DNA of 24,170 bases. It comes from a virus. A program made the translations under genes and the position numbers. Below are positions 1,212 through 12,808 of this stretch, in pieces. Under the pieces are notes generated by a model that saw only the letters and a program-made list of their open reading frames with translations, had not been told where the DNA came from and did no database searches. Position 1 is the first letter of the stretch. Every line of letters starts with the position of its first letter. Location: positions 1-24,170 of IMG/VR virus record IMGVR_UViG_3300027782_003934; one strand, 5' to 3'.

Positions 1212-1600
1212 GATGATTTTGAGACTTTTTCCAATAAAATTAAAATTTCTTCAACACTATATATAGCACGATCGTTGGCCATATGTAAATCTTTTAGATT
1301 TCCAAAATAATAAGATCGTGGTTGAGCGGCCACCCAACCTATGATTAATTCTATAGCGCCATTATTTTCAGGACTAGCATTGAATATAATTAAATCACCT
1401 TTGACAATTTTGTCCATCAACCATTCAATAGAATTTCCCATTTTCCAAACATAGTTTATGATGGTATAAGGCAGTGTGGTCTGCATTAATGCATTAGAAA
1501 CAATAGAACTGTGTTCTTCTGTTAGTTCTACGTGAACAATTCGAATACCCTGTAACAAGGTATCGTCTGGTGGGGTAACAACTAGAATACGGTCACTCAT
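1208..1600 (-). CDS. Conserved-looking hypothetical protein
   Basis: I do not recognise this 130-residue protein. It opens with a beta-strand-like segment (ILVVTPPDD) and alternates strands and helices with no transmembrane segment or signal peptide, suggesting a small soluble alpha/beta fold. An upstream in-frame ATG at 1627 exists, but the ATG at 1600 overlaps the stop of the membrane-protein gene in an ATGA, the junction style used throughout this window, so I place the start there. Its own stop overlaps the bS21 start in the same way. It therefore sits between the membrane coiled-coil protein and bS21 in one operon. Confidence 0.7.
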
Positions 1601-3075
1601 TTCTTGGCGTCTTGAATTCGTTGCCAAATTGTACGTTCGTTCTGTTCAGCATTTTGTTGATAGTTTTCTTTGATACGTTTGATCTGATTGCCCTGTTCAT
1701 CATGTTCCATCCACGACACATCAGAAACACCACGTTCTTCAGCCCACTCTTTGGCCTTTGCTGATTCTTCTGTGTCGGGATTTTCATCAGCCCATTTCTT
1801 GGCTTCTACGGCAGCTTCATCTACAAAGTCTGCCCGAGGCTTGAGATAATCGTACCACGGTAAATGATCTATGATGCCTTTTGCTAATAACTGTCTTTGA
1901 AACTTTAGGCTGGAATCTGGATTATCATGTTTCCATGCTGCCATTGCCTGCTTTTCTGTTTCAGGAACAGACGCTAAAATTTCTGAGTCTTCTAGTTCAC
2001 GCTCTTGTTCTACAGCTTTCTCAGCCTCTTCGATCATTTTGTTCCATTGTTCTAACGGCAAGTCTTCTACCGTTTCTACTGGCTTTTCCTCTGTTGCTGT
2101 TATATCACCTCCTAGTGCAGTCAACGGTGTTTCGCCTGGAACTTCTGTGTGTGTTTGTAATTTATATGCTGAAGGGAATGGCCAGTATGCTGAGGCTGCC
2201 GGACCAAAATGGTGCTGTGTAGATTCTTCTTCGGGCTCTACCTCTGTTTCTTCAGGAACCGGTTCTATGGCATCAGCTGCTAAATTTTCTTCTTCTTGTT
2301 TTCGAAACCATTGGAAACTGTACTGGCTGGCCAATAATAGAATCACTGCCAGCGGATCAAACACCACCACTATGATAATGATCACCCAGGTCACTGCTTT
2401 TTCTAATATGTTGGCATCTGGATTGTCTCCGTAGATAAAATTGGCAATATATTTTATTGGCCCTACTTCAGCCTCGACCTTTCGTACTTCCGCCGCGATG
2501 GGCGCACGTTCTTCGCTAACGGCGGCAACAATTTTCTGTTCGGCCGCAATCTCAGATTGAAGGCGGACTCTTTCTTTTTGCTGTGCTCTTCGGAGTCCAA
2601 CAGCCTTGTCAGCACCTTTTTCATCACTGCTTCGACCCATAACTTGGTCCACAGCCTCATCCATCTGTCTAAGCGCCTTACGGTTCGCATCTATATTGTC
2701 CTTGGCTGTTTTGATCTTTTCGTCGTAGATTGCAATCCTGCTCTGTACATCGCCGGACACAAGACTTTGATCACTGTGTGCTTTGCTTAGGAATCCAAAG
2801 ATACCCATGCTGGTAATCAACATTAATATGGCAATGGCTGCTAGTAGATAGGCTCGGATAAAATACGGTGCTCGAGTCCAATTTTGTTTGAGCCATACAG
2901 TGCCGGCAAGTTTGCTGATTTCCAAGGCCACACCCATCACAATGATTGGGATGACTGCCGCAGAGAATATGGCCACTAGTCCAGCCACACTGTAATAGAT
3001 GGCCACCGCAGATACTGTTAAACCGCTGAGTAAGGCTGACCAGGCAATGAATTTGTCGCTTGTATGTATTCTCAT
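1597..3075 (-). CDS. Phage membrane protein with coiled coil (DUF4407-like architecture)
   Basis: The 492-residue protein has hydrophobic helices at about 10-30, 31-52 and 74-97, then a charged coiled-coil-like stretch (about 105-205). A fourth helix at about 226-250 contains IIIVVVFDPLAVILLLAS. A long acidic C-terminal tail (about 255-492) is rich in Glu. Helix-coil-helix layouts with an FDPLAV-type last helix occur in DUF4407-like proteins, but I cannot confirm membership. It is probably an inner-membrane protein with the coiled coil on one side and the acidic tail in the cytoplasm. A TAAATATT element just upstream resembles the late-promoter motif. The role is unknown. Confidence 0.75.
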   Translation of the reverse strand: MRIHTSDKFIAWSALLSGLTVSAVAIYYSVAGLVAIFSAAVIPIIVMGVALEISKLAGTVWLKQNWTRAPYFIRAYLLAAIAILMLITSMGIFGFLSKAHSDQSLVSGDVQSRIAIYDEKIKTAKDNIDANRKALRQMDEAVDQVMGRSSDEKGADKAVGLRRAQQKERVRLQSEIAAEQKIVAAVSEERAPIAAEVRKVEAEVGPIKYIANFIYGDNPDANILEKAVTWVIIIIVVVFDPLAVILLLASQYSFQWFRKQEEENLAADAIEPVPEETEVEPEEESTQHHFGPAASAYWPFPSAYKLQTHTEVPGETPLTALGGDITATEEKPVETVEDLPLEQWNKMIEEAEKAVEQERELEDSEILASVPETEKQAMAAWKHDNPDSSLKFQRQLLAKGIIDHLPWYDYLKPRADFVDEAAVEAKKWADENPDTEESAKAKEWAEERGVSDVSWMEHDEQGNQIKRIKENYQQNAEQNERTIWQRIQDAKK

Positions 3076-3080
3076 GAACT

Positions 3081-4344: not shown

Positions 4345-4644
4345 TTATTTGAAGAAGATTAGAGCCATTAGAACTGCCTGGATAATAAATCCAAATCCGA
4401 TTGTGACAATGTTCAACATGTCTTTTTGGATTGTGGCTTTGACAAACAACAAGGTTAATCCTGTCCAAACCAACAGTACTAGATCTACCCCGGGCAGTCT
4501 GTCTGTGAGTCCTGCCATCACTGCTAACATGCTGGGCACAGTAGCAGAGTGAAGCACTATGGCAGCAAGCCAGCCAAATGTTTCTGCTGAGATTGTAGAG
4601 ATTTTGGTTTGAACAAATGTCTTGACTTGATTGATGTCGATCAT
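4345..4644 (-). CDS. Three-helix membrane protein, possible holin
   Basis: The 99-residue protein has predicted helices at about 22-46, 53-70 and 77-98, a short charged N-terminus and a single C-terminal Lys. Size, three helices and position directly after a peptidoglycan hydrolase gene (ATGA overlap) fit a class I holin. There is no family motif I can name, so this is a context-based suggestion. A ribosome-binding site AAAGGAACC sits inside the end of the hydrolase gene. An alternative is a generic inner-membrane protein unrelated to lysis. Confidence 0.6.
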   Translation of the reverse strand: MIDINQVKTFVQTKISTISAETFGWLAAIVLHSATVPSMLAVMAGLTDRLPGVDLVLLVWTGLTLLFVKATIQKDMLNIVTIGFGFIIQAVLMALIFFK

Positions 4645-5947: not shown

Positions 5948-6902
5948 CACCAAAATAGGGATCGTTTTTCAACCAATCATGGTAGTTTTGGAAACCTTGG
6001 GCTACATCAACTTTTGGATCAAATCCAAAATCTCTGCGAGCAGCATCAATGTTTAGAGCACCTCTGCTAGGGAAATCTAAATCACGATTACCTACAAAGA
6101 TTTCACCCTTACCTGCAACTTTTACAGCTAACTTGGCAGCATCTAGCAGACTGTGGCTGTGGCTTTTGGTAATGTTATAAGTTTTGTTGTCTGTGCGATC
6201 AGAAAGTGCGGCAGCAACGATTCCGTCAGCAGCATCGTCTACATAGGTAAAGTCTAGCGTTTCACTAGCACCGTTTACTCTAAGTGGGATGCCTCGCATG
6301 GCATTGAGAATAAACTTGCTTATCACTCGGTCTTCTACATCCAGCGGTCCATACACAGCACTGGGACGTATGATGGTATAAGCAAGATTGGTACGACGAG
6401 CATGATCTTTAACCAACCATTCTCCTGCCAGCTTGAGAATACCATATTGTCCCTGCGGGTGACATTCTGCATCTTCTGTGACATCATCTTTGAAATCACC
6501 GTAGACCATCGAGCTGGAAATGTAGATAAACTTTCGAACTTGGTATTGGTTGCTGTGGTCCAGCAAATTCAACAGGCCTTCTGACATGGTTCGACTTCCT
6601 CGGCCTGGGTGAGCATTCACTACCTTCTGTCGTGGAAAGCTGGCCATGTGTATGACTATTTCAGGCTTGTCAACGCTGAAACATGACTCCATGGTCCATT
6701 TATTCACAATATCAAGACAATAGTATTTTGTCAAGTCTAATCCTTGTGAACGTTGTGCTATGAGATGATCAATTTCTTCCTGAGGAATAATGTCATAATT
6801 GGTTTTTGTATCAATGATACTTACTGTGTGGCCCTGTGCCTGTAGTCGTCGAACTACATTATGACCAATAAGTCCTAGACCGCCTGTTACTAGAATGTTC
6901 AT
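5934..6902 (-). CDS. NAD-dependent sugar epimerase/dehydratase (WcaG-like)
   Basis: The 322-residue protein is an extended short-chain dehydrogenase. It has the Rossmann motif GGLGLIG (residues 7-13), an SSSMVYGD segment with catalytic Ser near 130, and YGILK with Tyr153 and Lys157. These enzymes epimerise or dehydrate NDP-sugars, commonly for lipopolysaccharide or capsule sugars. The length is normal and all catalytic residues are present. Its ATG overlaps the stop of the SGNH hydrolase gene. In a phage it may remodel host surface glycans or supply a sugar for glycosylation; the exact substrate cannot be told. Confidence 0.88.
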   Translation of the reverse strand: MNILVTGGLGLIGHNVVRRLQAQGHTVSIIDTKTNYDIIPQEEIDHLIAQRSQGLDLTKYYCLDIVNKWTMESCFSVDKPEIVIHMASFPRQKVVNAHPGRGSRTMSEGLLNLLDHSNQYQVRKFIYISSSMVYGDFKDDVTEDAECHPQGQYGILKLAGEWLVKDHARRTNLAYTIIRPSAVYGPLDVEDRVISKFILNAMRGIPLRVNGASETLDFTYVDDAADGIVAAALSDRTDNKTYNITKSHSHSLLDAAKLAVKVAGKGEIFVGNRDLDFPSRGALNIDAARRDFGFDPKVDVAQGFQNYHDWLKNDPYFGVDKH

Positions 6903-7309
6903 CGTGTTTGATTAGAAATAGTTTTATAACCCTTGCCCGTAGGGTGTACACGATCAGGGCTTAGATCGTGATTGCGAGTTTCGATAACATGATCATGATG
7001 CTTGTTAGCCACGGCCCAAACAGCCTTGCGTTTTTCTTCTTTAATGGCTGGCAGGATCCAATAAACTCGATCTGCCTTGACCAGTTGCCGCAGTGTGTTT
7101 AATTCTTCAAAGGTATTGATATTTTGAGTATCGTTTGATCCTAGACTGATGATGATGCTTTTGGCCTGCGTGTTACCTTTGGTATGCAGTATGTGCCGGT
7201 TCACATAGTCATAGCTGTTGATACCACTTTTGGCGAGAGTAACACATTCGGTACGAACCTGTCCCACACCTACTGCAAGGCTGTCGCCTAATATCAAACA
7301 TTCTAACAT
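6899..7309 (-). CDS. Small SGNH/GDSL-type hydrolase
   Basis: The 136-residue protein has SGNH blocks in order: GDSLAVG (Ser10), SG at 28-29, GSND with Asn59, and SPDRVHP with Asp119 and His122. The family comprises esterases, lipases and carbohydrate O-deacetylases. The frame runs upstream to 7393, but the ATG at 7309 follows a GGAGG and lies downstream of a near-perfect promoter, so it is the start. The protein is short for the family and keeps only a minimal core. Its coupling to the epimerase suggests a role in trimming or decorating a surface glycan. Confidence 0.8.
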   Translation of the reverse strand: MLECLILGDSLAVGVGQVRTECVTLAKSGINSYDYVNRHILHTKGNTQAKSIIISLGSNDTQNINTFEELNTLRQLVKADRVYWILPAIKEEKRKAVWAVANKHHDHVIETRNHDLSPDRVHPTGKGYKTISNQTR

Positions 7310-7340: not shown

Positions 7341-7368
7341 AGTATAACATACTTAATACATATGTCAA
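7341..7368 (-). promoter_or_regulatory. Near-consensus sigma-70 promoter for the SGNH-epimerase operon
   Basis: The -35 is TTGACA (7363-7368), the -10 is TATACT (7341-7346) and the spacer is 16 bp. It starts immediately after the terminator of pqqA. Confidence 0.8.
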
Positions 7369-7391
7369 GAGAAGACCCACCGAAGTGGGCC
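7366..7391 (-). terminator. Terminator hairpin after pqqA
   Basis: The RNA would form GGCCCAC-TTCG-GTGGGTC (7374-7391), a 7-bp stem with one G-U pair closed by a stable UUCG loop. A modest pyrimidine tract TTCTCTT follows. It separates pqqA from the next promoter. Confidence 0.65.
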
Positions 7392-7407: not shown

Positions 7408-7479
7408 TTAACGATTCATCACGTACATAGTGATTTCGAACCCGTAACGCATTTCAACTGCTTCTGGTGTTGTCCACAT
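7408..7479 (-). CDS. pqqA: Coenzyme PQQ precursor peptide PqqA
   Basis: This 23-codon gene encodes a peptide that begins MWTTPEAVE and continues MRYGFEITMYVMNR. It matches the PqqA pattern at W2, P5, R11, G13, E15, T17, Y19 and R23. In characterised systems, the Glu (E15) and Tyr (Y19) are cross-linked by PqqE, with PqqD as chaperone, and become the backbone of pyrroloquinoline quinone. An AAAGGAG ribosome-binding site sits seven bases upstream of the ATG. A -10 element and inverted repeat lie upstream and a terminator downstream, so it is a monocistronic unit or the end of one. No other pqq gene is in the window, so it would depend on host PqqBCDE. Confidence 0.88.
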   Translation of the reverse strand: MWTTPEAVEMRYGFEITMYVMNR

Positions 7480-7537
7480 AGTATTTCTCCTTTGGTTAAC
7501 AAAATTACATACTGTCTGTGTAACTGTATGTATCGTT

Positions 7538-7568
7538 ATTATATGATAGAATCACCACAGATCATATA
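7538..7568 (-). promoter_or_regulatory. Probable pqqA promoter with inverted repeat
   Basis: A consensus -10 TATAAT (7538-7543) lies about 60 bases before pqqA, but there is no good -35. An 8-bp inverted repeat TATATGAT/ATCATATA (7540-7547 and 7561-7568), centres 21 bp apart, overlaps the -10 and the -35 zone and could be a regulator site. Confidence 0.5.
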
Positions 7569-7647
7569 GTGAAAATCATTAAAAGGAGTTAGTGTTAGTA
7601 CTGGTTACGGATTCCAGTGATACCTTATCTTGTATCCGATTTACTTA

Positions 7648-9960: not shown

Positions 9961-9986
9961 GGTTGTGTCCTCCTGTACTTTATTTA

Positions 9987-10493
9987 TTAACTGTTTAACA
10001 CTTTTGCCACGGAATTCATTACACTGGCAATGCGGCCAATATCACGAAGCTGTTCTACAGTATAGCCTTCTTGTTTGAGTGTTTCGTAATGTGCTTTCAC
10101 ACAGAAGTGACACTTGCCTACAATACTTGCAGCCAAACTAAATGCTTCAAAGTTTACCTTGGTAGTTCCACCGTGACTTGCAATGGCATTCATCCGTAGT
10201 CCTGCTGGCAATCCTTTCAATGCTGGATCATCGGCCATTTCAACATATGGATACCATACATTGTTCTGTGCCATGATGCTTGCGGCTGTCATTGCTGAGT
10301 CAGCATGTACAGGAGCATCTGCTAACAAGACAGCTAATACTTTACCGTTGCCAGTTGCGGCTAGGGCAGCTACAGCACAACCCATGGCCACATCCGCATT
10401 CAACGTACTACGCACAAGCACAGCATCAAGATTTAACTTGGTGTCCTTGGCGTAGTCTGGCAACGCTTCTTTGATAGCGTCAATGAATGCCAT
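9987..10493 (-). CDS. ahpD: Alkylhydroperoxidase AhpD
   Basis: The 168-residue protein has the AhpD active site GKCHFCVKAH with Cys128, His129, Cys131 and His135, plus Glu116 in VNFEAFSLA. These match mycobacterial AhpD Glu118, Cys130, His132, Cys133 and His137 in type and spacing apart from small offsets. AhpD is a thiol reductase that passes electrons from lipoamide-bearing proteins to AhpC, and has weak peroxidase activity itself. Its ATG overlaps the ahpC stop in TAATG. Length and residues are intact, so it should be functional if host dihydrolipoamide is available. Confidence 0.93.
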   Translation of the reverse strand: MAFIDAIKEALPDYAKDTKLNLDAVLVRSTLNADVAMGCAVAALAATGNGKVLAVLLADAPVHADSAMTAASIMAQNNVWYPYVEMADDPALKGLPAGLRMNAIASHGGTTKVNFEAFSLAASIVGKCHFCVKAHYETLKQEGYTVEQLRDIGRIASVMNSVAKVLNS

Positions 10494-11050
10494 TACAGTG
10501 TCTCTCCGCCTACTGTACGGTTACAAGCACATAACTCGCCGGTCTGTAGTGCATCCAATACACGCAATGTTTCTTCTGGGCTACGGCCAACGTTCAAGTT
10601 GTTGACAGTCACGTGTTGGATAACGTTGTCTGGATCAACAATGAATGTTGCACGAAGTGCGGCACCTGCGGGAGCATAGAACACGCCAAGCTGATTGATC
10701 AGGCTTAGATCTTCCATAGTCTCGTCATTCCAACGTTGGATGTCAGCGAACTGGTTGTGTGTGATCTTCTTCAAATCAGCGTGGGCCATTTGCCATGCAG
10801 TCTTACAAAACTCATTATCTGTGCTACCTGTTAGCAATACTGCATCGCGGTCAGTAAAGTCGCCTGTTAGTTTGTCGTAGGCTACAATTTCTGTAGGGCA
10901 AACGAATGTAAAGTCTTTTGGGTAGTACACGATTACTTTCCATTTGCCAGGAAAGCTCTCATCTGTGATTGTAAAGTATGCGTCTTCTGGTTGTCCCGGC
11001 TTAACACCTGTGACTGCGAATTTTTCTAATTTATCACCAACTGTTTTCAT
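10493..11050 (-). CDS. ahpC: Alkyl hydroperoxide reductase AhpC (2-Cys peroxiredoxin)
   Basis: The 185-residue peroxiredoxin has the peroxidatic cysteine in YPKDFTFVCPTEI (Cys51) and a resolving pair in ELCACN (Cys174, Cys176). The CAC tail is the type found in AhpC proteins that work with AhpD, as in Mycobacterium, rather than with AhpF. It reduces hydrogen peroxide, alkyl peroxides and peroxynitrite. The gene has its own promoter (11106-11134) and an AAGGAG ribosome-binding site, and is coupled to ahpD. Peroxiredoxins are rare in phage genomes, so this is an acquired host gene. Confidence 0.95.
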   Translation of the reverse strand: MKTVGDKLEKFAVTGVKPGQPEDAYFTITDESFPGKWKVIVYYPKDFTFVCPTEIVAYDKLTGDFTDRDAVLLTGSTDNEFCKTAWQMAHADLKKITHNQFADIQRWNDETMEDLSLINQLGVFYAPAGAALRATFIVDPDNVIQHVTVNNLNVGRSPEETLRVLDALQTGELCACNRTVGGETL

Positions 11051-12222: not shown

Positions 12223-12248
12223 CAAAAAGAAACCCGCCGAAGCGGGTT
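12223..12248 (-). terminator. Strong intrinsic terminator of the tmRNA transcript
   Basis: The RNA forms AACCCGC-TTCG-GCGGGTT (12231-12248), a 7-bp GC-rich stem with a UUCG loop, followed by TCTTTTT. It ends the csp-tmRNA transcript. Confidence 0.9.
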
Positions 12249-12294
12249 CTGCTATTTTGGATTACAAGGTATAACTACCTCGGACCGCTGTTTT

Positions 12295-12390
12295 TTAGGC
12301 AGCTAGGGCAAATCTGCTTTCATTAGCAGCACCGCGAACGGTGTTACCAGTGAAGCTCATTGCGCTGAAGTCAAATGTATCTGCTGTTGC
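12295..12390 (-). other. tmRNA proteolysis-tag reading frame
   Basis: The frame ends in TAA (12295-12297) after codons for AANESRFALAA, close to betaproteobacterial tags. The tag frame stays open back through pseudoknot 1. By position (about 86-94 bases from the coding-piece 5' end) the resume codon is the GCA at 12388-12390 or at 12382-12384, giving a tag of about 29-31 residues. The exact resume codon cannot be fixed by sight. Confidence 0.65.
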
Positions 12391-12475
12391 ATTTACGATT
12401 TTTGCTTGATTTACGGTCATCGCCTACCGTGTTGCCGTCTCTATTATCTCACCCTGTCGAAACCATGGCAGGCCC

Positions 12476-12536
12476 ATTATTAAGTACACTCAGCTTTCGC
12501 CTTGCTTCCAGAATACTCGGATCGGAGTATACTTAA
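12476..12536 (-). other. Intervening segment between tmRNA pieces
   Basis: The 61 bases between the acceptor 3' CCA and the coding-piece 5' G have complementary ends (TTAAGTATACTC with GAGTGTACTTAA). They would fold into a long hairpin next to the processing sites. In known split tmRNAs this segment is removed by tRNA-processing enzymes. Confidence 0.8.
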
Positions 12537-12604
12537 TGGTGGACCTGGCGGGAGTCGAACCCGCGTCCAGAATGCCTTCACTTTGAAGGGATTACAACAA
12601 TTCC

Positions 12605-12808
12605 TTAGGCTGGCTGAATGTTACTAGCCTGCTGCCCTTTTTGACCCTGAGTTACTTCAAAACTTACAGTCTGTCCTTCTTGCAAGCTCTTGAAGCCACT
12701 CGAATTAATCTGTGAGAAGTGAGCAAATAAGTCTGCGCCACCATCGTCGGGAGTAATGAATCCAAAACCTTTGGCGTCGTTAAACCATTTTACTTTTCCT
12801 GTTACCAT
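12605..12808 (-). CDS. Cold-shock domain protein (CspA family)
   Basis: The 67-residue protein is a complete cold-shock domain with RNP1 KGFGFI (13-18) and an RNP2-like LFAHF (27-31). The start [20 protein letters not shown] and the ending [19 protein letters not shown] are of the betaproteobacterial CspA type. These proteins bind single-stranded RNA and melt structure. The stop codon lies within a few bases of the tmRNA acceptor piece, so the two are most likely one transcript. An AAGGAAAA ribosome-binding region precedes the ATG. A host origin is likely. Confidence 0.93.

Follow-up and report, generated by a model that had tools for sequence, protein, structure and literature searches.

A selectively constrained 23-codon pqqA gene on phage DNA, with counterparts in phages of methylotrophic bacteria and shared candidate control elements

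The window analyzed here, the whole 24,170-base IMG/VR virus record IMGVR_UViG_3300027782_003934, contains at positions 7408–7479 on the minus strand a complete open reading frame of 23 residues (ATG 7479–7477, TAA 7410–7408), which an earlier note, made from the sequence alone, had taken for a gene of the PQQ precursor peptide PqqA. Both curated PqqA profiles match the product, MWTTPEAVEMRYGFEITMYVMNR, over their cut-offs. PF08042, the family named in that note, gave an E-value of 4.5e-8 and 33.3 bits (cut-off 21.1) along positions 1–19 of 19, and the NCBIfam equivalog TIGR02107 gave 4e-8 and 32.9 bits (cut-off 20) along positions 1–21 of 21. In a six-frame search this was the sole PqqA match of the record, and none of 14 control genomes had a match. 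Glu15 and Tyr19 of PqqA are the residues joined by PqqE, and both are present in the window peptide as the pair Glu15-x3-Tyr19, so that the hallmark described previously is indeed there.

The signals around the gene (Table 1) largely bear out what had been described. The strong ribosome-binding site and the upstream −10 were both recovered, and nearly all phage copies of pqqA have an AGGA-type site in front of them. Of the supposed terminator the hairpin stood (RNA fold z = −3.65), but the U-tract behind it is weak. The hairpin in the 5′ UTR recurs in relatives, in which the letters of the stem differ and the pairing is kept (ATAAGTACT/AGTACTTAT, ACATACT/AGTATGT). Since the next gene has a strong promoter of its own, pqqA probably constitutes a small transcription unit by itself.

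The gene lies on phage and not on host DNA, the virus record also encoding an endolysin, a tail spike, exonucleases and a class Ia ribonucleotide reductase (NrdAB-type), along with a nucleotide-sugar epimerase, a glycosyltransferase, a peroxiredoxin and an AhpD-like protein. This context, together with the homologs in cultured phages given below, agrees with the earlier placing of a PqqA gene in a phage. Whole-window megablast against GenBank phage records gave no match at the DNA level. Relatives of the window exonuclease or peroxiredoxin were found in at least ~600 viral stretches, among them records of 347–353 kb, which makes it probable that the window is part of a very large phage genome. 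The peroxiredoxin, with its relatives in these at least ~600 stretches, and the AhpD-like protein form an antioxidant pair that is unusual for phages. The window also holds a permuted tmRNA adjoining a cold-shock gene, the tag of which, as predicted by ARAGORN, ends ...ANESRFALAA. It was considered as a marker of the host and set aside, as it is of Betaproteobacteria type with matches scattered over the order and indicates no single host family.

Table 1. Positions of features in the window and in other pqqA-bearing records.
Record	Feature	Position	Strand	Remarks
Window	pqqA	7408..7479	-	23 codons + TAA (72 bp); product MWTTPEAVEMRYGFEITMYVMNR
Window	Shine-Dalgarno AAAGGAG	7487..7493	-	~8 nt before ATG
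Window	5′ UTR hairpin TACATAC/GTATGTA	7506..7532	-	stem letters vary in relatives, pairing kept
Window	-10-like TATAAT	7538..7543	-	~60 nt upstream of pqqA; without -35 consensus
Window	Promoter element TTTAATGATTTTCACTAT, palindrome-like AATGATTTTCACTAT	7566..7583	-	-35 region; common to other phages and some Methylophilaceae
Window	Terminator-like hairpin GGCCCAC-UUCG-GUGGGUC	7374..7391	-	GC-rich; weak U-tract; behind pqqA
Window	Strong sigma-70-like promoter TTGACA-16-TATACT of next gene	7341..7368	-	directly after hairpin
Window	Peroxiredoxin (AhpC/TSA), then AhpD-like gene (CMD family)	9987-11050	-	2.5-3.6 kb upstream of pqqA
Window	Permuted tmRNA, Betaproteobacteria type	12323-12640	-	RF01850 + RF04321
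L401	Leader RNA	12232-12285	+	window relative
L149	Leader RNA	3029-3076		
L131	Leader RNA	6015-6062		
L200	Leader RNA	2374-2430		
L197	Leader RNA	7006-7056		
L497-L519	Leader RNA			
L131	ROSE_3 RNA thermometer	4506-4572		before small heat-shock protein gene
L149	ROSE_3 RNA thermometer	1445-1510		before small heat-shock protein gene

Upstream of its pqqA copies the window lineage shows a common set of signals, with TTTAATGATTTTCACTAT in the −35 region, then TATAAT and the hairpin with conserved pairing. The strict form of the element occurs once each in 15 of 20 loci with pqqA and in none of 140 loci without it. Judged from these sequences, pqqA travels with its own putative promoter element in the window lineage. 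A matrix trained on this lineage alone, and run with shuffled controls, located 65 sites upstream of 176 pqqA genes of other phages, a 60-fold enrichment relative to the remaining sequence of those contigs, and 14 sites upstream of 130 host pqqA genes (23-fold enriched). By eye, TTTAATGATTTTCACTAT agrees with the general Fur-box consensus at 13 of 19 positions and is a candidate Fur-box-like element. The exact phage motif had six matches in 187 host genomes, five of them one and the same Fur-box-like sequence and one preceding an outer-membrane-receptor-like ORF. None was seen upstream of pqqA, and the phage consensus is therefore not identical to the host site.

The distribution of pqqA among phages was surveyed by tblastn against 50,697 phage records, with E ≤ 1e-3 taken as confident. 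Ten records qualified: MEP401, MEP402, P19250A, MEP301, Venkman, four Melnitz strains and one environmental phage. Nine are isolates, all grown on Methylophilales/Methylophilaceae, and represent six distinct cultured methylophages (P19250A, Venkman, MEP301, MEP401, MEP402, and Melnitz). Their pqqA genes have 23–24 codons, and the peptides are 68–78% identical to that of the window and keep the Glu/Tyr pair. In the phage records inspected, the site carries either no annotation or, on the other strand, a hypothetical protein; in Venkman (MT375522.1) the unannotated gene is at 9977-10045. With pattern scans of IMG/VR and the relatives of the window included, there are at least ~190 viral pqqA loci, the longest record being one of 356 kb (L079). 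The window and the cultured methylophages are unrelated phage types that have pqqA in common, and the phages carrying it include Zobellviridae, siphovirus-sized phages, Melnitz-type phages and very large genomes. One further candidate, Acinetobacter phage MD-2021a (L008, CAKLQF020000010.1), was rejected; it has ppk and pqqA-pqqBCDE in host order and is probably a bacterial contig that entered the database under a phage name.

All 166 viral copies among the matches listed have both Glu15 and Tyr19. The overall conservation is partly built in for most loci, because these were found via motif patterns; one of the patterns, however, left the codons of Glu15 and Tyr19 both free, and the scan with it returned no copy without either residue among the matches listed. 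The window lineage and the isolates together form a set of 22 distinct sequences that were selected without a motif; here both residues are invariant (22/22) and dN/dS is 0.11. Together with the profile score, this ratio excludes a chance reading frame. PqqA scores among the relatives of the window drop from at least 32 bits directly to 10, hence there are no decaying copies among them. The frame is kept in related phages, on which the earlier note had made its reading depend. The phage gene is an intact PqqA peptide gene under selective constraint.

On the host side, the window peptide is ~78% identical to PqqA of Methylophilaceae and 64–68% identical at best to PqqA found on plasmids of other Burkholderiales. 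It shares with the former its length, the MW-x-x-P start, the [ED]-M-R-x-G-F-E-[IV]-T-M-Y core and the ribosome-binding site. This identity, and the origin of nine of the ten confident phages from such hosts, upholds the suggested link to betaproteobacterial methylotrophs. The similarity of the 23-residue peptide and the shared regulatory sites make a Methylophilaceae bacterium the likely host of the phage. The core of the peptide differs in at least 4 of its 18 positions from each of 108 distinct host cores, none of which has the Y12 and I16 of the window, so the phage version appears to be long separated and not a recent copy. Orphan copies of pqqA away from pqqBCDE are normal in Methylophilaceae, and that of the window likewise stands alone. 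The family has several pqqA genes, the other pqq genes being single-copy as a rule (PMC4109929), and 1–12 copies per genome were counted here in 30 genomes; of the five copies in one methylotroph that produces PQQ, only some show high expression (PMC9851590). That hosts multiply pqqA alone suggests that the supply of the peptide is what selection adjusts.

A candidate structured leader RNA of the form UCUCAAG-stem-CYU-hairpin-UCU-stem-GAUCUG-hairpin-AAGGAGAA precedes pqqA in some of these hosts and phages. Visual selection entered the choice of its seeds but not the genome search, which located it in 23 of the 187 Methylophilaceae genomes. All 23 are small and OM43-type, with one site each that lies directly before pqqA. 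It also occurs in 13 viral loci. It is absent from the window and present in a relative (L401). In the alignment, 98.9% of the cells of the central stem pair, with 26 double changes against a shuffled mean of 6.9 (0/500 as high). The model had essentially no match elsewhere in ~2.4 Mb of loci, apart from a weak extra one in L169. The 5′ UCUC is predicted to be able to pair with the Shine-Dalgarno GGAGA in hosts and several phages. No family in Rfam matched, and the leader RNA is apparently undescribed so far; it may possibly act on pqqA as a riboswitch or as some other switch of translation. ROSE_3 RNA thermometers found in two pqqA-bearing phage contigs (L131 and L149) were also considered as elements of pqqA and discarded, as they belong to the small heat-shock gene.

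Phage pqqA is a solitary gene as a rule. PqqE was not found in the window record and no pqq gene was found among the scanned window proteins, in agreement with the earlier statement that no other pqq gene is near. Of 50 long viral records with pqqA, none has a PqqE over the cut-off (there were three weak radical-SAM matches), and a PQQ alcohol dehydrogenase occurs in one. That these are phage records is supported by terminase matches in 20 of the 50, 18 over the cut-off. On a 72 kb record shared with the pqqA-bearing L097, L300/L301 match a PQQ-dependent alcohol dehydrogenase (TIGR03075, 608 bits), and in having the two genes together this record resembles Baikal phages.

It is established that PqqE, acting together with PqqD, links the Glu of PqqA to its Tyr, after which a protease, PqqB and PqqC yield PQQ (PMC10906245). 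The phage gene has a metabolic homolog in the host and is subject to purifying selection, as expected of an auxiliary metabolic gene, and we consider it likely to be a functional pqqA that would serve the synthesis of PQQ by the host. PqqA would be made during infection from the phage's own promoter, bound by host PqqD and joined at Glu15 and Tyr19 by host PqqE, with the host protease, PqqB and PqqC completing PQQ. Infection would stop the supply of new host PqqA while the host enzymes persist, and because one PqqA is used per PQQ and the enzymes turn over, the peptide would be the first to run out when host transcription falls. A gene of 72 bp would then be the cheapest means by which PQQ-dependent dehydrogenases, those of methanol and of other alcohols, stay charged with their cofactor and go on delivering energy to phage replication, and in this way phage pqqA may support periplasmic oxidation, as the earlier note had proposed. 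The presence of pqqA in many phages of methanol-eating bacteria suggests that these phages refill a used-up precursor. Cyanophages with psbA resupply the single host component that is spent during infection; by analogy phage pqqA may do the same, with the difference that psbA replaces a damaged protein and pqqA would supply a peptide consumed as substrate.

It could be argued that the peptide is instead a decoy that occupies PqqD/PqqE or acts as a dead-end substrate, lowering PQQ and halting periplasmic oxidation. A lone short precursor without enzymes would also fit a competitive inhibitor, as would the distance of the window peptide from every sampled host core, but Glu15 and Tyr19, both of which a decoy could lose, are invariant in every copy, purifying selection is strong over the whole peptide and the variants are conservative. 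We regard a decoy as improbable.

A second alternative would leave supply of the precursor intact and change its purpose, PQQ from the phage peptide being used mainly for something other than methanol dehydrogenase, such as redox protection during infection. The window has its peroxiredoxin and AhpD-like gene upstream of pqqA, and in the 20 pqqA-bearing loci of the lineage pqqA lies 0.6–3.8 kb downstream of ahpC. However, a coupling of the two genes had to be rejected, as ahpC is equally common in relatives without pqqA, and pqqA also occurs in small methylotroph phages; this use is quite improbable.

Among members of the lineage with the neighborhood covered, pqqA is present in those 20 loci and missing in 47, and entire lineage records of 347 and 353 kb are without it. 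This makes it an accessory gene, repeatedly gained or lost, which many relatives can do without, perhaps the ones that infect other hosts. On the AhpC tree its presence is weakly clustered, with 14 changes against a shuffled mean of 16.9 (of 500 shuffles, 27 gave as few), and many of its branches are too weak for gains and losses to be counted. That such patchiness reflects a neutral host fragment acquired by chance is disfavoured and very improbable, given the low dN/dS, the lack of decayed copies among relatives, the occurrence of the gene in unrelated phages and the conserved promoter element that accompanies it.

Viral pqqA is already known as a kind. It was published in 2020 for the Lake Baikal phage population VP_266, a T4-like phage with a predicted Methylophilaceae host, where it was proposed to aid methanol oxidation (PMC7678222), and virus-encoded pqqA, pqqE, and pqqD are reported from reservoir sediments (PMC13188868). 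In VP_266 the gene accompanies one for methanol dehydrogenase, whereas no dehydrogenase was seen in the window or in 49 of the 50 long records. For cultured methylophages no report of pqqA was found in the literature searched: the paper on MEP401/402 does not mention pqq, that on MEP301 names no auxiliary metabolic gene, and that on Melnitz mentions PQQ only as a medium supplement. What is added here is breadth, solitary carriage and shared regulation.

Taking the supply of precursor to the host as the preferred reading, we put forward tentatively, and with slightly less than even confidence, that pqqA is a widespread and systematically overlooked gene of methylotroph phages carried as a regulated cassette, in which unrelated lineages keep host-type control elements (the Fur-box-like palindrome, and the leader RNA found only upstream of pqqA with its predicted pairing to the Shine-Dalgarno) and a host signal would time the supply of the precursor. 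If the preferred reading is right, pqqA would be among the smallest phage metabolic genes known and common in viruses of methylotrophs, a group active in the methanol turnover of lakes and coastal seas; surveys would miss it because gene callers skip genes of 23 codons. That reading also predicts that a stoichiometric host peptide, and not an enzyme, limits PQQ during infection, which can be tested in culture. The shared control elements may offer an entry to the regulation of pqqA in the Methylophilaceae.
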